In this document: positions 5,144 to 51,683 of the stretch, piece by piece | How the letters are laid out: each line of letters opens with the position of its first letter | Position numbering within the stretch: position 1 is the stretch's first letter | Origin: a virus | IMG/VR virus record: IMGVR_UViG_3300020442_001429 | Span: 1 to 57,177 of that record | DNA length: 57,177 nt | Strand: one strand, 5' to 3' | Notes under the pieces: model-generated | What the model saw: only the letters and a program-made list of their open reading frames with translations | Told to the model about the DNA's origin: nothing | Database searches by the model: none | Translations under genes and position numbers: made by a program

Positions 5144-5232
5144 AATACGCCTCCTTGGTTGAAAGCGCGTTCCTTCGACATCATCGTCTACTTCCGTGTG
5201 TAAGTAAATGAACTTACACATGAACGTAAAAA

Positions 5233-5490: not shown

Positions 5491-6127
5491 AATAAACTTT
5501 TCCATTCCAATCATAATAGAACTGTTTAATTTTACCGCTATAATCAATGTCTTTAAGTCCTGCATTTTCAATTAGTGCTTTCTCACTATCAACGCAATTA
5601 ATACCATACATCTCTTCTATTACATTAGAGTTTTGCACAGCAAATATAGCGTGTTTATTGGCAGTTCTTAAATCATGTAACGGGTACATTTGCTCAGAGC
5701 CCATTGTTATAACTACATCTACTTTCAATTGATTTAATTCATCAAAGGCAAATGGTATATCTAAGTTCCAATGATTAACTTTTATATACTCTTCAGCAAT
5801 ATAATGTTTATTAAAAACTTTAGAAAGTTCTAATGCTTCGTTGTCTATATCTACCAAATGTAATTCTCCTATATCTAAATTTTCACATAGTAAAGGAACA
5901 AGTGGTACACCTAACCAACTATTTAATACTAGAACCTTAAATTGTTCTTCTTTCATATAGCCATCTAAACTATTTTTTAGTTCTTCGACTAGCCATATAG
6001 CCGCTTCCATTGTATTAGGATTTAGAGCCTGTCTAAAGTCGTCGTGTTTATGTTTCATTTCATGTTCAACTTTAGCAAGGCCGTCGCCCCAATGTTGTAG
6101 GTTATTTAAAAAATTAAAATTTAACAT
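5459..6127 (-). CDS. Class I methyltransferase-like protein
   Basis: 222 residues from an ATG at 6127 with a GGAAG-type ribosome site. FKVLVLNSWLGVPLVPLL stands where motif I lies in SAM-dependent methyltransferases, though the usual Gly-rich DxGxG is poorly kept. LHLVDIDNEALEL gives the acidic end of beta-2, and VDVVITMGSEQMYPLHDL fits motif IV. The weak glycine loop means cofactor binding needs proof. Both ends overlap neighbours, so it is part of the glycosyltransferase operon and may methylate a sugar or peptide product of that pathway. That role is inference. Confidence 0.5.
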   Translation of the reverse strand: MLNFNFLNNLQHWGDGLAKVEHEMKHKHDDFRQALNPNTMEAAIWLVEELKNSLDGYMKEEQFKVLVLNSWLGVPLVPLLCENLDIGELHLVDIDNEALELSKVFNKHYIAEEYIKVNHWNLDIPFAFDELNQLKVDVVITMGSEQMYPLHDLRTANKHAIFAVQNSNVIEEMYGINCVDSEKALIENAGLKDIDYSGKIKQFYYDWNGKVYYDRFMAIGKK

Positions 6128-6788
6128 CTTCTTTTCTTCCCATTGAATCAAATAAACAAACATAAGGTATTTGTCTATAAACTTGTAATTCTACATCATG
6201 AGGATAAACATACCCATGATTATAACTATAAAACCAACCTAAAGGAAAGTATTTTATTCTTGCTACACCCTTGTGCATAAAGAAATTATCTATCCCACGG
6301 TAGTACCATAGTATTTTTTCTAAATGTGTTTTAAAATATAGAGTGATATTTTCCTTATCCAAATTATCATTCCATCTTAAAATACTGCTATTTAAATCTG
6401 TGTATTTGTGAGGCACATGACTAGTTTCTTTTTTCATTTTATCTAAATCGTGCCAATGTGTCTGACCAAAACATAAACAGTCTTCAGGATCAAAGTTTGC
6501 TATGTCATCTATATTCTTTTGTATAATAACATCTAAGTCAAAGAATAAATTTTCACCTTTTTGTCTTACAACATTATCATCAAACAGATACATTTTATTC
6601 CACCACTTTTTTAATCTGTTTCCTTTTGGTAGTGGTATGACGGTAATATCTCTATCAATTCCTTTTGGGTTTTCAGTTAGGCAATAGAACTTAAAGTCCA
6701 TAGATAAATTTTCTTTGCACGCTTCGTAGATTTTGTCTACGTGCTGTGCAGAATATTTACTGCCCCATTTTACTGTATAGATATTCAC
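6114..6788 (-). CDS. DLD-motif glycosyltransferase, paralogue 4
   Basis: 224 residues from a GTG at 6788 that overlaps the previous stop as GTGA. It opens with MNIYTVKWGSKYSAQHVDKI and has YCLTENPKGI and then FFDLDVIIQ (D84, D86), the metal-binding Asp-x-Asp of GT-A transferases. A later block LNSSILRW, GIDNFFMH and WFYSYNHG matches the other three paralogues of this operon, where the same positions read SSVMCW/SCQVW, GTDNYH and YSYNRG. Substrate unknown. The four copies probably add successive sugars to one glycan. Confidence 0.7.
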   Translation of the reverse strand: MNIYTVKWGSKYSAQHVDKIYEACKENLSMDFKFYCLTENPKGIDRDITVIPLPKGNRLKKWWNKMYLFDDNVVRQKGENLFFDLDVIIQKNIDDIANFDPEDCLCFGQTHWHDLDKMKKETSHVPHKYTDLNSSILRWNDNLDKENITLYFKTHLEKILWYYRGIDNFFMHKGVARIKYFPLGWFYSYNHGYVYPHDVELQVYRQIPYVCLFDSMGRKEDVKF

Positions 6789-25796: not shown

Positions 25797-27107
25797 ATGG
25801 GAGTAGAATCCAAAATCAGAGAACTTCTAGAAGGCAAACAAATTGCTGAAGAAGTTATAGATGAAGTTGCTGGTAATCAGCAGCCGACGTCTTCTGCGGA
25901 TGCACATCGTCCATTAGATAAAAAGCAAGGTGATGCTACCCCTCCCCTACAAGGCAGTTCAAATCCTAACCCAGAACAACAAGACCTAAGTGGTACTAAC
26001 AACCCTGAAGGTGGATTAACAAGCGAAGTAGGAAAGGCAGCATCAGCAAAAGCTGGCTCAGCCCCACGTCCACAAAACAGTGGTGCTGGACAGGCTCCTA
26101 ACTACACAGACGGTACAGACCCACGTAGCGTTGTTAACCAATCATCTTCTAAAGGTAATGTACACCAAGAAGAAGACGAAGTTGAGTTGGAAGACGAACA
26201 AGAAGTTTTAGATGAAGTCGAAGAGACTGAAGAAGAAGCTATCGTTGAAGACGAATACGTTGACGAAGGTCTTGAAGAGTTAGAAGAAGGAGAGGAGGAG
26301 TCCGAAGAAGTAGTAGCTGAAGAAACTGAGGAAGAAGTTGAAATGACTGAAGACGAAGTAGAAGCAGAAACACTATTCGAGGATGACATTGCTAATTTAT
26401 TTGAAGATGAAGAGCATCTTTCCGAAGAATTTAAAACAAAAGCAGCCTCACTTTTTGAGTCTGTTGTTGTTGCTAGAGTAAATCAACAAATTTCTCAAAT
26501 CGAGGATGAACTTGTTGAGGAAGCTAGCAAAGCTTTTGATGAAGCTAAAGAAAATCTCGTTGAAAATGTCGACAAGTATCTGTCATACGTGACTGAGCAG
26601 TGGATGAAGGAAAACGAGCTTGCTATTGAAAATGGTTTAAGAAATGAAATCACTGAGTCCTTTATTAAAGGGATGAAAGACGTTTTCGTTGAACATTATA
26701 TTGACGTTCCAGATGAGAAAGTTGATGTATTGGCTAACCAACAGCAAGAAATTGACGAACTAAAATCTAAGTTAGACGAAGAAATTGGTAAGTCAGTAGC
26801 GATCAGCGAAGAAAAAGAGCAACTACAAAAAGAGAAAGTATTCTCTTCCGTGGTTGGCGATCTAGCTGAGACAGAGGTTGAAAAGTTTGCTACTCTAGTC
26901 AATGATGTAACATTCGGAGACGAAGAGGAGTACGCTCAGAAACTAAACGTTATTAAGGAAAATTATTTTCCTAAAGCGAAAGCGGAAACTTCTGGCGATA
27001 AGCTAGATGATAGCGTTGACCAAGGAGCCTTAGTTGAAAATACTGTTATGGCTAGATATGCCGAAAGCATTTCTAAAGCAGCTAAATTCGACAAGGTTAA
27101 AAGTTAA
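25797..27107 (+). CDS. 22: Prohead scaffolding core protein gp22
   Basis: 436 residues. The N-terminus MGVESKIRELLEGKQIAEEV is followed by a Pro/Gln/Ser-rich linker and then a very acidic tract (about 120-200, mostly Glu/Asp/Val). A long helical coiled coil from about 205 includes FKTKAASLFESVVVARVNQQ and QQEIDELKSKLDEEIGKSVA. The end, VMARYAESISKAAKF, is conserved in gp22. It forms the internal core that shapes the capsid and is digested by gp21. It is longer than T4 gp22 (269), the extra length being the acidic tract. Confidence 0.88.
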   Translation: MGVESKIRELLEGKQIAEEVIDEVAGNQQPTSSADAHRPLDKKQGDATPPLQGSSNPNPEQQDLSGTNNPEGGLTSEVGKAASAKAGSAPRPQNSGAGQAPNYTDGTDPRSVVNQSSSKGNVHQEEDEVELEDEQEVLDEVEETEEEAIVEDEYVDEGLEELEEGEEESEEVVAEETEEEVEMTEDEVEAETLFEDDIANLFEDEEHLSEEFKTKAASLFESVVVARVNQQISQIEDELVEEASKAFDEAKENLVENVDKYLSYVTEQWMKENELAIENGLRNEITESFIKGMKDVFVEHYIDVPDEKVDVLANQQQEIDELKSKLDEEIGKSVAISEEKEQLQKEKVFSSVVGDLAETEVEKFATLVNDVTFGDEEEYAQKLNVIKENYFPKAKAETSGDKLDDSVDQGALVENTVMARYAESISKAAKFDKVKS

Positions 27108-27113
27108 TTTTTT

Positions 27114-27121
27114 TATAAATA
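27114..27121 (+). promoter_or_regulatory. T4-type late promoter before gp23
   Basis: Exact TATAAATA, 46 bases before the gp23 ATG, just after the gp22 stop. AAAGGAG lies directly before the ATG. Confidence 0.78.
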
Positions 27122-27166
27122 ATTAGGTTATTAAACATATAACAAACGTAAATAAAGGAGCAACTA

Positions 27167-28432
27167 ATGTATCTTTCAGAAGAACTACAGAAAAAGTGGC
27201 AACCAGTTCTAGAGCATCCTGAACTTGATGATATCAAGGATCCTTATAGAAAGGCTGTTACTACCGTGGTACTCGAAAACCAGGAAAAAGCTCTCCGTGA
27301 GGAGAAGGAAGCCCTGTTCGAAGCTACACACGCAAACCAAACTGGTTCTAACATTGATAACTATGATCCTATTTTAATTTCGTTAGTTAGACGTGCGTTG
27401 CCAAACTTAATGGCATATGACGTATGTGGTGTACAACCTATGTCTGGACCAACTGGTCTTATCTTCGCAATGAAGTCACACTTCACTTCACAAAGTGGAA
27501 CTGAGGCATTATTCAACGAAGCGGACACAGACTTTTCAGGCGCAGGTACACACGCTGGATCTAACCCAGTAGACGGTACTTATACAACAGGTACTGGCGT
27601 AAGCACATCTACTGCAGAAGGATTTGGTGATTCAACTACACTTAACGAAATGGCTTTCTCTATTGAGAAAACAACTGTTACTGCTAAATCAAGAGCATTG
27701 AAAGCAGAATACACAGTTGAACTTGCTCAAGACTTGAAAGCGGTTCATGGTTTAGATGCGGAATCAGAACTCAGCAACATTCTTTCTCAAGAAATTTTGG
27801 CTGAGATTAACCGTGAGGTTATTAGAACGATTTATAAAGTCGCAAAGACTGGATCTGCAAGCACAGCAACTGCTGGAACATTCGACCTAGACGTCGATAG
27901 TAACGGTAGATGGTCGGTAGAAAGATTCAAGGGTCTTCTCTTTAACATTGAGAGAGACGCTAACGTAATTGCACAAGACACAAGGCGTGGTAAAGGTAAC
28001 TTCATCATCTGTTCATCAGATGTTGCAAGTGCTTTAGCGATGGCTGGTGTTCTTGATTACGCCCCAGCATTATCAACTAACTTAAATGTTGATGACACAG
28101 GTAATACATTCGCTGGTGTGTTAAACGGCCGTTACAGAGTCTACATTGACCCTTATTCAGCAAACACAGGAGCTGCTAGCCAGTTCTACGTTGTTGGATA
28201 TAAAGGTACTAGCCCATATGACGCTGGTATTTTCTACTGTCCATACGTTCCACTACAAATGGTAAGGGCTATTGACCCAAGCACATTCCAACCTAAAATT
28301 GGTTTCAAAACTAGGTATGGCATGATTGCTAATCCATTCGTAATGCAAGCGGACGGTACAACTGATGCTGACACATTCACAGCAGACAGAAACCAATACT
28401 ACAGATCAGTTAAAGTTACAAACTTAATGTAA
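27167..28432 (+). CDS. 23: Major capsid protein gp23
   Basis: 421 residues. PILISLVRRALPNLMAYDVC, GVQPMSGPTGLIFAMKSHF, YTVELAQDLKAVHGLDAESE, LSNILSQEILAEINREVIRT and the C-terminal FYCPYVPLQMVRAIDP and KIGFKTRYGMIANPF blocks are diagnostic of T4-type major capsid proteins. A likely gp21 cut site is LFE/A at residues 50-53, which would leave a mature chain of about 369 residues. It has its own late promoter and a strong terminator after the stop. Confidence 0.96.
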   Translation: MYLSEELQKKWQPVLEHPELDDIKDPYRKAVTTVVLENQEKALREEKEALFEATHANQTGSNIDNYDPILISLVRRALPNLMAYDVCGVQPMSGPTGLIFAMKSHFTSQSGTEALFNEADTDFSGAGTHAGSNPVDGTYTTGTGVSTSTAEGFGDSTTLNEMAFSIEKTTVTAKSRALKAEYTVELAQDLKAVHGLDAESELSNILSQEILAEINREVIRTIYKVAKTGSASTATAGTFDLDVDSNGRWSVERFKGLLFNIERDANVIAQDTRRGKGNFIICSSDVASALAMAGVLDYAPALSTNLNVDDTGNTFAGVLNGRYRVYIDPYSANTGAASQFYVVGYKGTSPYDAGIFYCPYVPLQMVRAIDPSTFQPKIGFKTRYGMIANPFVMQADGTTDADTFTADRNQYYRSVKVTNLM

Positions 28433-28451
28433 TTAGATCTTTTTTTATTGT

Positions 28452-28480
28452 AAAGGGGGCTAGATTTAGCCCCCTTTTTT
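28452..28480 (+). terminator. Rho-independent terminator after gp23
   Basis: A GC-rich stem of AAGGGGGCTA with its complement, six-base loop, and a run of six T residues. It starts 20 bases after the gp23 stop and ends the capsid transcript. Confidence 0.9.
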
Positions 28481-28498
28481 GCCTAGGATATAATATAA

Positions 28499-28660
28499 AT
28501 GAAAAACTTATATATCATACCACTTGTACTTTTAGGAGTATTACTAGCAACAGGATGTGCGGGTAGAATTTATTTAGATGCTACTTTGCCTAATGATAAG
28601 GACGTTGACATCCGTATAACTACTAATACAGAACCTAAAGAGTACATTGTCGAAAAGTAA
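28499..28660 (+). CDS. Small lipoprotein (53 aa)
   Basis: A 54-codon frame from the ATG at 28499 to TAA at 28660. MKNLYIIPLVLLGVLLATGC is a textbook lipoprotein signal: basic start, hydrophobic core and a lipobox ending in Cys20. The mature part is about 33 residues (AGRIYLDATLPNDKDV and so on), acidic. It would be lipid-anchored in the host envelope. It may act in lysis as a spanin-like piece or in superinfection exclusion; neither is shown. The ribosome site is weak. It lies between the gp23 terminator and a minus-strand gene. Confidence 0.7.
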   Translation: MKNLYIIPLVLLGVLLATGCAGRIYLDATLPNDKDVDIRITTNTEPKEYIVEK

Positions 28661-28663
28661 CAG

Positions 28664-28903
28664 TTAGTCTGTTTCTTTTACGAAAGCGTTCAGCTCCCTA
28701 GCTACTGCTATTACTTCCTTAGCAGTAATAGGTTCTAAACAACTTGTTGGAAAATCTGGATAAGCAACATCTCGTTGTTCCAAACTTCTTTGAACGTTAT
28801 TGTGATAAGCATCTAGTTTAAAGCTTCTATTTTGCTCTAAAATACATTGTGCTTGGTTGAGTAAATCGGCTCTAATTTCAAAGCCATTTCTATTATTTGA
28901 CAT
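28664..28903 (-). CDS. Conserved small phage protein, minus strand
   Basis: 79 residues from the ATG at 28903, which has AGGAG upstream; an earlier in-frame start at 28942 lacks a ribosome site. MSNNRNGFEIRADLLNQAQC, then a long polar helix, then ITAKEVIAVARELNAFV, resembles short proteins common in marine T4-like phages (GFEIR..LL.QA...; EVI..A..LN.FV). Function unknown. It is the only minus-strand gene in the right two thirds of the window and converges on the lipoprotein gene with three bases between stops. Confidence 0.6.
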   Translation of the reverse strand: MSNNRNGFEIRADLLNQAQCILEQNRSFKLDAYHNNVQRSLEQRDVAYPDFPTSCLEPITAKEVIAVARELNAFVKETD

Positions 28904-44300: not shown

Positions 44301-44654
44301 ATGGCAGACGATACTTTTGATTTCGGTTTCACGGCTGTAGATGAACCAAGTGATAATGTACAGCAGCCTCAACCTGCTCTAAATAATGACGAAGTCCTAG
44401 ATAAACTTGCACAACTAGAAGCAAAGATTATCCAAGCGGACAATTCAAATATGGTGAATGAACATAGGGCTCTTATTGAGTCAGATGTTGCAGGCAAACT
44501 TCGCGATGTAGAAGATCTTGTACTACCTTTACTATATAATTTACAAAAGAATCCTGAAAAGGAATATATCCATTGGCCAAATAGAACGGCTATTATTGAT
44601 AAACAAATTGAAAAAATTAAGGCGGTAACAAGATTTTATGAGCGAGTCAACTAA
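44301..44654 (+). CDS. Conserved hypothetical phage protein
   Basis: 117 residues. The first 40 are acidic and low complexity (MADDTFDFGFTAVDEPSDNV). Two helices follow, and EYIHWPNRTAIIDKQIEKIK near the C-terminus is a conserved-looking signature with IHWPNR. I know of similar short proteins in T4-like marine phages but no function. AGGAG lies before the ATG. It overlaps the ClpP-like gene by 17 bases. Confidence 0.6.
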   Translation: MADDTFDFGFTAVDEPSDNVQQPQPALNNDEVLDKLAQLEAKIIQADNSNMVNEHRALIESDVAGKLRDVEDLVLPLLYNLQKNPEKEYIHWPNRTAIIDKQIEKIKAVTRFYERVN

Positions 44655-45240
44655 ACCAATAAACAATCCACAGCAACAGGGCAACGCTTTTGAACGTCCT
44701 GTTGCTAGAATATTTGATCTGTATCTATCAGGACCGATAGAATCAGCAGAAAAATACCAAGACTGGAACCAAATACTAAGGTCATCAAGTGAAAATGATG
44801 TAATAATATTGCACATCAATAGTAATGGTGGCAATATATTTTCATGTATTCAATTGATGCGTAGTATAAGAGAGTCTCAAGGAACAGTCGTAGCTTCAGT
44901 AGAAGGTATGTGTTTCTCAGCAGCAACTCTCTTATTTTTAGTTTCCGATGTATGTGAAGTAAGCGATCATTCGCATTTTATGTTTCATACATACAGTTCG
45001 GGAGCATGGGGAAAAGGGAACGAACAATTAGAATCAGTTATGGCTGATGATAAATGGGCACGGGCTCTTTTTAAAGACGTATATAAGGACTTTTTATCAG
45101 CAGAAGAACTAAAAGAAATGATGCAAGGCAGAGACTTTTGGTTATCAGCAGATGATGTTACAAAGCGTCTCGAGGCAAGGAATAAGAAAAACGCAAAAGC
45201 TAAACCTCGTAAAAGACTTTTGCAAAAACAAGGAAAGTAA
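44638..45240 (+). CDS. ClpP-like serine protease
   Basis: 200 residues. IFDLYLSGPIESAEKYQDWN, ILHINSNGGNIFSCIQLMRS and ASVEGMCFSAATLLFLVSD give the crotonase-like ClpP fold with a nucleophile Ser in CFSAA, and HFMFHTYSSGAWGKG the active-site His. The helix FLSAEELKEMMQGRDFWLSA carries the likely Asp region. A Lys/Arg-rich tail (KNAKAKPRKRLLQKQGK) replaces the usual end. Possible roles are prohead processing or host protein turnover. It ends in a TAATG overlap with the receptor gene. Confidence 0.82.
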   Translation: MSESTKPINNPQQQGNAFERPVARIFDLYLSGPIESAEKYQDWNQILRSSSENDVIILHINSNGGNIFSCIQLMRSIRESQGTVVASVEGMCFSAATLLFLVSDVCEVSDHSHFMFHTYSSGAWGKGNEQLESVMADDKWARALFKDVYKDFLSAEELKEMMQGRDFWLSADDVTKRLEARNKKNAKAKPRKRLLQKQGK

Positions 45241-46790
45241 TGAGAAATATATTATGGGTGCTTTTATTCACCACACTATCTACCACGGTAGCAGCTTCTA
45301 ATTCAGATTATGATGTAGAAGAAATAATTGTAGTAGGAGCATACATCGTTGAAGGACGATCAGATGCAGAATATGATGATAATTTATTGGAATCTATTAT
45401 GCCTACTAAGAGTTATGTTGCAGGAGGCCCTGGAGCATTTCAAGGTATCATGTTAAATGGTACAGACACGAAACATACAGCCGTTTACAAAAACGGAGTC
45501 CCTGTAAATGATCCTAGTTCTGGATGGTTTGATTTTGGAACAGAATTAATTTCAGGGCAAAATACAAAACTTATATCAGGACCTAATAGTGTCCAATTTG
45601 GTAGTGGTTCTATGGCAGGAGTCGTACTTATTGATGACGATTTATCAATAAGAGAAACTATTATTAAAGGAGCTAATGATAAAGCATACGTCTTTACATC
45701 TCTTGAAGGACTTCAACTGATACATTATAAAGGAACAAACGGTTCTGCTAGGAGTGATAACACAGAAGAAGATTGGTATGAAAATACAACTTTAAAATTT
45801 GGTGGTGATGTAAATGATTGGATTATTAGAGGTGAATTTACAGATTACACTTATGATTATGATAATTGTTGGACTGAAACACCTAATAATTGTGTACAAG
45901 ACGGAGAGAAAACTTTCTTCTCAGCAAGAAATGATAAAATTACTCTAGGTTATATGGGTAATGAAGCAACACATAACACAGGTTTTGAATTAGACACAGA
46001 GAGATTTTATCTTGATGCAACAGTTTACGAAGCCTATGGTATGAAAGTAGGAATCACAGGACAGAAAGAAACATACAACGAACTAGATAGAGATATTGGT
46101 GCTGTATGGTTTACTTGGACAGACGACAGAGGAGTTTCAGTAGGTTTGAGATACGAAGATGACGCAGAGATTATTAGAGTAGGATACGAAAATGATGATG
46201 TGAAAGTTTCTGTAGGTAATAGTTACAGACGTCCTAATCTATATGAGGAAAATGGTGACGATTGGGTAGCAGCTAATCCTAATTTATTACCTGAAGAAGG
46301 CATAGGTGCTGAGGTAACTTGGAATAAATTTTCAGTATTTTATAATGAATTTAGCGAAGGTATTGAATTTGATATGTCAGCATATCAATATGTGAACACA
46401 GGATCTTATGATGCTCATGGTGTTAAATATATGAACCAATGGCTAATGGATACAGGATCTATCTTTTTCTCTACTACATATACGCAAACAGATAAAATTA
46501 GAGTGCCTGATTGGATGACTAAAATCTCATATTGGACAGCAGGAAATATAGGTGGCATGACTTGGACAGGAGAGATTGCATACATCTCAGAACTTAATAA
46601 AGGAAAGGACTTTGATGGTAGAGAAATCGACGATGTAGACAACTTTGATATCCGTTGGAGTATAGAACCTGCCCCTAGACATACATTAATGTTCGCGATA
46701 AACGATGTTTTCGACAATAATTTTGAGGTTTTACCCGATTATCCAGCAGGAGGACGTGAATTTTCTCTTAGCTACCGCGTAAGTTATTGA
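45240..46790 (+). CDS. TonB-dependent outer membrane receptor (BtuB-like)
   Basis: 516 residues. Residues 1-20 are a Sec signal peptide. EEIIVVGAY (28-35) resembles a TonB box. The plug domain reads GTDTKHTAVYKNGVPVNDPS, then GWFDFG, then GPNSVQFGSGSMAGVVLI (114-131), as in BtuB-type receptors. The rest alternates beta strands and loops of a barrel (for example FYLDATVYEAYGMKVG). The end, NDVFDNNFEVLPDYPAGGRE and a final SYRVSY, has the closing aromatic of outer membrane proteins. It is shorter than BtuB (about 594 mature). Gene frame is intact. Substrate unknown. Confidence 0.85.
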   Translation: MRNILWVLLFTTLSTTVAASNSDYDVEEIIVVGAYIVEGRSDAEYDDNLLESIMPTKSYVAGGPGAFQGIMLNGTDTKHTAVYKNGVPVNDPSSGWFDFGTELISGQNTKLISGPNSVQFGSGSMAGVVLIDDDLSIRETIIKGANDKAYVFTSLEGLQLIHYKGTNGSARSDNTEEDWYENTTLKFGGDVNDWIIRGEFTDYTYDYDNCWTETPNNCVQDGEKTFFSARNDKITLGYMGNEATHNTGFELDTERFYLDATVYEAYGMKVGITGQKETYNELDRDIGAVWFTWTDDRGVSVGLRYEDDAEIIRVGYENDDVKVSVGNSYRRPNLYEENGDDWVAANPNLLPEEGIGAEVTWNKFSVFYNEFSEGIEFDMSAYQYVNTGSYDAHGVKYMNQWLMDTGSIFFSTTYTQTDKIRVPDWMTKISYWTAGNIGGMTWTGEIAYISELNKGKDFDGREIDDVDNFDIRWSIEPAPRHTLMFAINDVFDNNFEVLPDYPAGGREFSLSYRVSY

Positions 46791-49322: not shown

Positions 49323-50519
49323 ATGAAAGCAATTGATAGAGAAAACTTAGTAGCAGCACTTAAAGACTGTGATAACGGTACAGGTGTTTTTACTAGGAAA
49401 CAAATAATTGAAACTGCCCAATCTATTGGTGTTGGTTTCCCAGCCTGGTTAGTAAACAAGCCAGACTATAAAGTAGACAGAGGTGTCTATAACTTGACTG
49501 CAATGTTCGGAGGAACAGCACAGGCAATTGAACTTCCAAAGGCAGCCCCTAAGGCTCCAATTATGGAGGTACAATCCCAGGCTCCAGCCCCCGAGGTATT
49601 GACTCAGGCTATCCTGAATGTAACCGTTGATAACTTAGTCCCATTCAAAGATGAGACTTATGTTCCATATGGTTTCTTCAAGGACTTGAAAAAAGTTCTA
49701 ACAAGTTCTATGTTTTACCCAATATTCATTAGCGGTTTATCTGGTAATGGTAAAACTACAATGGTAGAACAAGTATGTGCGAACCTGAAACGTGAGGCGG
49801 TTCGTGTAAATATTAGTATTGAAACTGATGAAGATGATTTGATCGGTGGCAATACTCTAGTTGACGGTAACGTCGTGTATAGAGAAGGGCCCGTCCTCAC
49901 AGCGATGAAACGCGGGGCTGTTCTTATCCTTGATGAAGTGGACAGAGGTTCCAACAAGCTGATGTGCTTACAAGCTATTCTAGAAGGTAAGCCCTACTTC
50001 AACAAGAAGACTGGCGAAACCGTAACTCCTGCTCCCGGCTTTAACATTGTTGCAACAGCCAACACAAAAGGTCGAGGTTCTGATGATGGCAAATTTATTA
50101 GCGCCAACATACTCGACGAGGCATTCCTAGAAAGGTTTGCAATCACCGTGGAGCAGGAGTACCCTACTTTAGCAACCGAGAAGAAGATTGTTCTAAACAA
50201 AATGAACAAGGCAAATTGTGTAGACGAAGATTTCGCACTGCACTTGGTTACTTGGTCAGATGTAATTCGTAAAACATATTACGAAGGTGCAATTGATGAA
50301 CTGATCTCAACTCGTAGGTTAGAGCACATTGTAAACGCATACGCAATGTTTACAGATAAAACTAAGGCAATTGAACTATGTGTCAACAGGTTCGATGAAG
50401 ATACTAAGGCAGCATTTATAGACTTGTATGCCAAAGTTGATCCTAGTGTACAAATTAATGAAGGTGACGATGAGATCCTTGATAACGAAAAAGCGGAGGA
50501 AGAACTTGGCGAAGAATAA
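49323..50519 (+). CDS. cobS: CobS/MoxR-like AAA+ ATPase
   Basis: 398 residues. The N-terminal 70 form a small winged-helix-like domain (FTRKQIIETAQSIGVGFPAW). Walker A is SGLSGNGKT (about 137-145), Walker B LILDEVDR (about 200-207), sensor 1 VATANTKGRG, and the arginine-finger region AFLERFAITVEQEYP. It matches phage CobS-like proteins, AAA+ partners of VWA proteins. The CobT-like neighbour supports a two-part remodelling machine. The acidic C-terminus is disordered. GTGAGG precedes the ATG. Confidence 0.85.
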   Translation: MKAIDRENLVAALKDCDNGTGVFTRKQIIETAQSIGVGFPAWLVNKPDYKVDRGVYNLTAMFGGTAQAIELPKAAPKAPIMEVQSQAPAPEVLTQAILNVTVDNLVPFKDETYVPYGFFKDLKKVLTSSMFYPIFISGLSGNGKTTMVEQVCANLKREAVRVNISIETDEDDLIGGNTLVDGNVVYREGPVLTAMKRGAVLILDEVDRGSNKLMCLQAILEGKPYFNKKTGETVTPAPGFNIVATANTKGRGSDDGKFISANILDEAFLERFAITVEQEYPTLATEKKIVLNKMNKANCVDEDFALHLVTWSDVIRKTYYEGAIDELISTRRLEHIVNAYAMFTDKTKAIELCVNRFDEDTKAAFIDLYAKVDPSVQINEGDDEILDNEKAEEELGEE

Positions 50520-50814
50520 AATAGACTACAAGTTTAACGAAGGAGCTCTTATTCAAGAGCTCCAGGCGTATATCGACGAAACATATGGTGGTCATTACAG
50601 TAGAAATAAATTCCAATCAACGGAATTTATCAGTGATTGTGGACACGGTATTGGTTTCGCAATAGGAAACATTTTAAAATATGCACAAAGGTATGGCAAA
50701 AAAGGTGTTGCCGAGGACCATAGAAAGGATCTACAAAAGGTTCTACACTATGCAATTATTGCACTAAATGAGCATGATAAAAGTACCGTGAAACACTATT
50801 TGGATGAAGACTAA
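50506..50814 (+). CDS. DUF3310-like protein
   Basis: 102 residues from a TTG at 50506, with GGAGG six bases upstream; a longer in-frame reading starts inside the ATPase gene and has no ribosome site. YIDETYGGHYSRNKFQSTEF, then GHGIGFAIGNILKYAQRYGK, is the DUF3310 signature (Y..HY....Q..EF...GF..GN..KY..R.GKK), a common phage protein sometimes fused to nucleotide kinases. Function unknown. It overlaps the protease start by one base. Confidence 0.78.
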   Translation: MAKNKIDYKFNEGALIQELQAYIDETYGGHYSRNKFQSTEFISDCGHGIGFAIGNILKYAQRYGKKGVAEDHRKDLQKVLHYAIIALNEHDKSTVKHYLDED

Positions 50815-51683
50815 TGGACTTTGTAGAAGCCGATTATGTTGAATGTAATGTAGTTGACTACAAATCATGCCATGGTATGGACTCCAACTATCGCAATTTT
50901 AATCTAGTATATCGCCCAGGTATTAATACAATACGTCTGGGCATCTACATGGATGATAGAATGGAAAGGCGTAGAGTGTTTGGTTATGTAAAACAACTGA
51001 ACGAAATATTTAAAATCAACGGTATTGATATTCATATTGAGACTGCTTTTGTAGAGCCTGTTGATATTGAAAACACCTATGATAGTTTAGGAAATATTGA
51101 ACTAGCATATGATTTAAAAGATTGGGATCAGTATTCTCCCTTCTATGAGAAAGCTTGGTTAGTAGACAAGTATGAAGTAGATATGATTCACGTCATGTTA
51201 GACAGTGAACAAGATTGGGAAGTATGTGGTGCCGGTTGGGTATGGAAAGGTGAAGGTATGACAGCAGGATTGACTGCCTGTTATACTAAGAATGATATTG
51301 CCACAGTAGATCCTGAACAAGATACATCTACTGAATATATTTTTGCACATGAAATAGGACACCAACTAGGGTTAGCACATTCTAAAGATGACGCAGGCGA
51401 GAAACCAACCTTTAGTGTAGGACATGGCTTCATGGCATCTGATGGTACAGGAACAATTATGTCTTATGCTAAAAATAGAGTGCCTTATTACTCTAATTGC
51501 TGGACAGAGATCAATGGTATTAAATATGGTAATTCAGAACATAGAGCAGACATGGCAATCAACGCATCTGCTCCTTCGATATCATTAACTTATGAAAACT
51601 ATGGTCCCTATAATTATCCTGTTATTGATCCTGAGATAGGAGCAAATAACGACAGGTTTATTAACACCGTATTTAGAAATTAA
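50814..51683 (+). CDS. Metzincin zinc metalloprotease
   Basis: 289 residues. The zinc site is HEIGHQLGLAH (179-189) and the Met-turn is TIMSY (M216), the two marks of metzincin proteases. The N-terminal 170 residues are beta-rich (GINTIRLGIYMDDRM, IDIHIETAF) and form the usual upper domain. No signal peptide is seen, so it would act in the cytoplasm or in the virion. Peptidase on a capsid, tail or host surface protein is possible. The gene ends before a late promoter. Confidence 0.85.
   Translation: MDFVEADYVECNVVDYKSCHGMDSNYRNFNLVYRPGINTIRLGIYMDDRMERRRVFGYVKQLNEIFKINGIDIHIETAFVEPVDIENTYDSLGNIELAYDLKDWDQYSPFYEKAWLVDKYEVDMIHVMLDSEQDWEVCGAGWVWKGEGMTAGLTACYTKNDIATVDPEQDTSTEYIFAHEIGHQLGLAHSKDDAGEKPTFSVGHGFMASDGTGTIMSYAKNRVPYYSNCWTEINGIKYGNSEHRADMAINASAPSISLTYENYGPYNYPVIDPEIGANNDRFINTVFRN

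Follow-up and report, generated by a model that had tools for sequence, protein, structure and literature searches.

The window, that is, the whole 57,177-nucleotide stretch of DNA that was analysed, is an IMG/VR virus record (IMGVR_UViG_3300020442_001429) carrying T4-like terminase, portal, protease, capsid, tail sheath and helicase genes. It represents a T4-like marine myovirus, whose capsid protein is 71% identical to that of Methylophilales phage Melnitz and 69% identical to that of Pelagibacter phage HTVC008M. A glutamine riboswitch (RF01739, 51.5 bits) lies at positions 5164-5228 on the minus strand; Melnitz-like phages have been reported with a glutamine riboswitch (PMC9004378). Amid the replication and recombination genes, outside the structural module, an open reading frame that begins with ATG and ends with a Tyr codon before its stop encodes a TonB-dependent receptor. 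The features of this gene and of its neighbours are as follows.

44638..45240, plus strand: ClpP-like protease gene, upstream of the receptor (PF00574, phrog_1827)
45240..46790, plus strand: coding sequence of the BtuB-lineage TonB-dependent receptor, 516 aa (from profile, fold and relatives)
45240..45296, plus strand: putative signal peptide, residues 1-19, VAA/S cleavage, assigned by eye
45315..45341, plus strand: TonB box VEEIIVVGA, residues 26-34
45342..45635, plus strand: plug domain, residues 35-132 (Pfam Plug in 30/30 members, four modelled strands)
45654..46784, plus strand: predicted 22-strand β-barrel, residues 139-515 (AlphaFold2, fold comparison with 2gsk)
45765..45863, plus strand: acidic residues E176 and D178 (loop 2) and D208 (loop 3), which align with BtuB D193, D195 and D230
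45867..45893, plus strand: Cys pair C210/C218 in extracellular loop 3, invariant in 30/30 phage proteins
46896..49220, plus strand: 'peptidase' gene of phrog_459, with a DLSGSMH motif seen by eye
49323..50519, plus strand: CobS-like AAA+ ATPase gene (TIGR01650 at 2e-21, below the cut-off; phrog_249)

The signal-like N-terminus of the receptor, MRNILWVLLFTTLSTTVAA/S, is clear by eye, and the N-terminus is hydrophobic in all of the aligned relatives displayed. In the TonB box, which follows the pattern EExxVxG (residues 27-33), E27, E28 and G33 are invariant and V31 is nearly so among the 30 phage proteins. Within the plug lies the segment GPNSVQFGSGSMAGVV (residues 114-129). The open reading frame, the TonB-box-like segment, the BtuB-like plug with this segment and the terminal Tyr had all been described in the first-pass annotation, and all of them are present. 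The invariant cysteines of loop 3 form a probable disulfide; the bacterial relative L071 carries a similar Cys pair. A profile search against the TonB-dependent receptor families, which the annotation had also proposed, detected Pfam Plug (PF07715) in the window receptor at 28.5 bits, as compared to a cut-off of 23.9. The only NCBIfam match below E 0.01 was the B12 receptor family TIGR01779 (E 4e-10), and this stayed far from the equivalog cut-off of that family (38.7 bits versus 599.7); among the 30 relatives, 23 match TIGR01779 at E<=0.01. The PHROG families gave no match to the window receptor.

The structure was predicted with AlphaFold2. The model built from 11 phage sequences contained exactly 22 strands in residues 139-515 and no plug, while the model built from 30 sequences (mean pLDDT 81.8, pTM 0.83) contained the same 22 strands together with a plug, which forms a four-stranded sheet (residues 35-40, 80-84, 108-113 and 127-132) with pLDDT values mostly of 70-90. 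In a Foldseek search of the PDB, the top match was the BtuB:TonB complex 2gsk (E 1.5e-18, TM 0.73), and BtuB entries made up most of the top 15. The predicted fold of the receptor is thus a plugged 22-strand barrel, contrary to the refuting outcome named in the first-pass annotation, a fold without one. A search of BFVD returned a single significant viral match, the 805-aa SusC protein A0A8D9FQQ5 from an uncultured marine phage.

The receptor is widespread among related viruses. At least 37 viral loci with relatives were recovered in one scan and more in another, amounting to about 40 viral contigs, with proteins 40-98% identical to the window receptor and frames open throughout wherever the contig is not cut. 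All eight of the records tested carry one copy. The gene is found in three genomic contexts: between the ClpP-like gene and the phrog_459 gene, as in the window; before an SbcD-like gene (L010, L011, L014 and L015); and between two unrelated open reading frames (L004, L034, L037 and others). Where the record includes the capsid gene, the capsids are 89-98% identical across all three contexts, indicating that close phages keep the receptor at different sites. The receptor is just downstream of the ClpP-like gene in 30 of 31 usable contigs, the exception being L202, and it is near-core, being present in nearly all of the close relatives examined. In the GenBank phage collection, no phage matched the receptor protein. 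When BtuB itself was sought in the GenBank phage records, the best matches were bacterial contigs filed as phage, along with short unannotated contigs; in AFYI01000005.1 and AGRM01000004.1, both filed as phage, BtuB stands beside 16S rRNA, and the records look bacterial.

The coding sequences are under purifying constraint, with dN/dS of 0.15-0.31 in 13 pairs. The median identity of the receptor (45%) is nevertheless lower than that of most neighbours (60-80%), the phrog_459 protein diverging similarly fast. The TonB box is the most conserved of the regions compared (0.82), followed by the plug (0.79), the extracellular loops (0.73), the strands (0.63) and the periplasmic turns (0.46). Within the barrel, the extracellular loops rank first, ahead of the strands at p 0.0004. 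The receptor is a host-type gene on a genuine phage genome and is maintained by selection, and in these respects it fits a phage auxiliary metabolic gene.

In the window, the ClpP-like gene ends in a TAA stop that overlaps the receptor ATG by one base. The TAATG junction noted in the first-pass annotation is accordingly real as an overlap, but the two genes are not fused, and most relatives do not share the junction, having the gene of a 140-160-aa exported protein, or some other gene, in between. We therefore rejected the ClpP-receptor pair as a general functional unit, and the link between the two genes is positional only. The exported protein, which has a glycine-rich segment (L012, 9537-9977; L032, 9569-9982; L202, about 5700-6140), is absent from the window, yet it is kept in L202, which lacks the receptor; the L012 protein, the only one tested, had no Pfam or NCBIfam match. 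Downstream of the receptor, the phrog_459 gene occupies the place of the peptidase gene that precedes cobS in pelagimyophage HTVC008M. The syntenic peptidase-CobS pair of HTVC008M is preceded by an unrelated 380-aa gene and stands without a receptor. Since the receptor also occurs in two other contexts, and since the HTVC008M pair lacks it, the neighbouring CobS-like and peptidase genes were set aside as evidence for a link to the B12 pathway. Further downstream in the window, a metzincin (reprolysin-like) metallopeptidase of a kind that is usually secreted is encoded at 50814-51683, and is missing from that place in L002 and L003. Genes for an enoyl-CoA hydratase-like protein (PF00378; L012, 17657-18415) and, by eye, a ferredoxin-like protein (L032, 16118-16441) were seen in relatives.

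To place the receptor among known families, a profile of 30 phage proteins was compared with all PDB sequences, and it matched BtuB only (E 9e-21). Two scans of 84,980 genomes yielded no close bacterial copy, and hence no close bacterial donor, but only remote relatives. For this reason, we turned to a profile search of bacterial genomes, covering 399 genomes from the phylum of a Rhodobacteraceae genome and then two orders within that phylum. The best bacterial relatives are about 23% identical over the full length, and the nearest ones are mostly 610-690 aa long, as compared to about 490-530 aa for the phage receptors.

When Rfam was run on the surroundings of the nearest bacterial relatives, a cobalamin or AdoCbl-II riboswitch was found beside 41 of 47 (18/20, 16/20 and 7/7). 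Of 20 other receptors taken from these genomes as a control, a single one had such a riboswitch. The sole riboswitch-bearing control receptor groups with the B12 receptors on the tree, and the riboswitch is present in both L093 and L112. Ten genomes that encode 7-63 receptors each contain one match to the phage profile at E<=1e-12, and this match is always the riboswitch-bearing receptor. On the phage side, no cobalamin riboswitch was found in the window or in the six phage loci scanned.

The acidic residues of the barrel point in the same direction. We take the calcium-site aspartates of BtuB to be D179, D193, D195, D230 and D241. E176, D178 and D208, at the positions of D193, D195 and D230, are all invariant in the 30 phage proteins. 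The position of D195 is the most discriminating, with Asp in 30/30 phage proteins, in 27/28 members of the B12 group and in 1/16 of the other receptors (plus two with Glu). An acidic residue is found at the 193 position in 24/28 of the B12 group and 9/16 of the others, and at the 230 position in 26/28 and 7/16, respectively. The positions of D179 and D241 are not conserved in the phage proteins, and most of the riboswitch-controlled bacterial relatives likewise lack both. In BtuB, the calcium sites are near the B12 pocket, in a five-aspartate cage (PMC7360065). With an acid at three of the five positions, the cage was dropped as proof of B12 binding and lends partial support.

On the tree, the 30 phage proteins form one clade (support 100), which is placed on a long stem within the riboswitch-bearing B12 group (support 94) and nearest to the receptors of a streamlined AT-rich order. 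However, a topology in which the phage clade joins non-B12 receptors was not rejected by the AU test (p 0.35), and the tree position was dropped as proof of a B12 lineage. Given this result and the long stem, the main support for the claim about the ligand comes from the profile, the riboswitches and the conserved residues. By profile, fold and riboswitch association, the phage receptor is a compact relative of BtuB, and BtuB is the closest to it among known receptors.

Seawater offers little vitamin B12, and many bacteria have to import it. We consider it reasonably probable, on the evidence above, that the phage gene raises corrinoid uptake during infection. The host would probably export the phage receptor and insert it into the outer membrane, where the host TonB-ExbBD system would probably energise it through the conserved TonB box, and the receptor would then probably take up cobalamin or a similar corrinoid. 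This would supply cofactor to B12-dependent enzymes of the host, among which methionine synthase may be another sink for the corrinoid. In some phages, the imported corrinoid may also serve phage-encoded radical SAM enzymes that have B12-binding-like domains. Such a protein is encoded directly downstream of the receptor in L013 and nearby in L012 and L032, although the matches to PF02310 are mostly below the cut-off. Eight or nine radical SAM genes were counted per record in L012, L034, L004 and L022, some of them with a B12-binding-like N-terminus.

A B12-dependent class II ribonucleotide reductase was considered as the reason for uptake and rejected, since the phage enzyme is of class I, with a large and a small chain. 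The gene at 27054-28877 of MZ577097.1 is annotated as a vitamin B12-dependent ribonucleotide reductase, yet a small chain follows it, and the annotation is probably an error.

A bolder proposal, which is possible but which we hold only tentatively, is that these proteins constitute a dedicated class of viral corrinoid importers, a deep and near-core clade coupled to B12-using radical SAM enzymes of the phage, by which an infected cell would out-scavenge its uninfected neighbours for B12. If corrinoid import is correct, infection would alter who takes up B12 in the sea, and this would be, as far as our searches show, the first phage lineage with an outer-membrane vitamin gate. The compact plugged barrel would also offer a model for a minimal TonB-dependent transporter.

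The first-pass annotation had offered cobalamin import, iron import and a surface decoy as functions. Cobalamin import is the one favoured here, and the other two are possible but less likely. With respect to iron, or any other scarce ligand such as a siderophore, heme, a metal complex or a cofactor, the BtuB scaffold could have been kept while the ligand changed on the phage branch. The long stem, the identity of about 23% to bacterial relatives, the AU test and the two absent calcium-site aspartates all allow for such a change, and iron would help the class I ribonucleotide reductase, an enzyme that normally requires iron or manganese. On the other hand, the PDB profile finds BtuB only, the nearest relatives are associated with riboswitches, and the acidic residue characteristic of the B12 group is retained, so that we regard a change of ligand as unlikely. 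Phages and colicins commonly dock on BtuB and other TonB-dependent receptors, and some phages are known to encode surface proteins that keep rivals out. A surface copy of the receptor, or the overloading of TonB, might block the entry of toxins or of rival phages relying on BtuB or TonB, and the faster divergence of the receptor family relative to most of its neighbours would fit such a role. Changing rivals, however, predict variable loops, whereas the extracellular loops vary less than any other part of the barrel, which favours ligand uptake over a decoy; moreover, the TonB box is almost invariant, though a decoy needs none. We judge this explanation to be improbable.

A virion-associated or lysis-stage pore, in which the barrel would play some other structural role, seems very improbable. 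Related phages do encode a curli pore for which a part in lysis timing has been proposed (PMC9004378), but the receptor gene lies among replication and recombination genes instead of the structural module, and the plug, the TonB box and the other receptor signatures are all kept. The idea that a host receptor ended up in a phage contig through bacterial contamination or misassembly has the bacterial origin of the gene family as its sole point in favour, and its probability is close to negligible. Phage genes flank the same gene in about 40 viral contigs, which come from many samples; the GC content of the gene resembles that of the rest of the contig, the phage proteins form one fully supported clade, and the genome scans produced no close match. 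In view of the viral relatives, the flanking phage genes, the clade and the Melnitz/HTVC008M-like capsid, we rejected this explanation. The suspicion of a bacterial misassembly, raised at the outset, has thus given way to a genuine phage contig whose gene is conserved across relatives, and the original identification of a phage-encoded TonB-dependent outer-membrane receptor is borne out by profile search, structure prediction, fold comparison and the viral contigs.

Corrinoid uptake, the reading that we prefer, can be set beside several known systems. Pelagimyophages and Melnitz encode the curli pore CsgG/CsgF (PMC7029224, PMC9004378), which resembles the receptor in being an outer-membrane channel in the same phage group, but is of an unrelated fold and family. 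The cobS and cobT genes of cyanophages and pelagimyophages have been proposed to play a cofactor-related role (PMC7029224, PMC9599517). The neighbourhood of the receptor shares cobS-like, peptidase and peptide deformylase genes with these phages, but cobS and cobT are not uptake genes. The pelagimyophage papers describe cobS, cobT, peptide deformylase, radical SAM cassettes and curli pores, and TonB is not mentioned in PMC7029224 or PMC9599517. In the open-licence literature searched, the only claim of a phage-encoded TonB/BtuB receptor concerns a megaphage SusC, the remaining papers being about receptors of the host or about other subjects, and an earlier report elsewhere is possible.

Compared with E. 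coli BtuB (2gsk; TIGR01779), which is its best counterpart by both profile and fold, the phage protein shares the plug, the 22-strand barrel, the TonB box and an acid at three of the five calcium-site positions. It differs from BtuB in being phage-encoded and shorter, in lacking D179, D241 and a cobalamin riboswitch, and in its remoteness, both from its nearest bacterial relatives and from the TIGR01779 equivalog cut-off. The closest viral parallel is the marine megaphage Mar_Mega_1, for which a putative SusC-type TonB-dependent receptor was described and a role in nutrient uptake proposed (PMC9723777); judging by name and source, this is probably the protein A0A8D9FQQ5 recovered in our fold search. 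Both are TonB-dependent receptors of marine phages, but the SusC protein is of the carbohydrate type, is 12% identical to the window receptor and occurs in Mar_Mega_1 and one further megaphage record, whereas the receptor described here is of the BtuB type and is found throughout a myovirus lineage.
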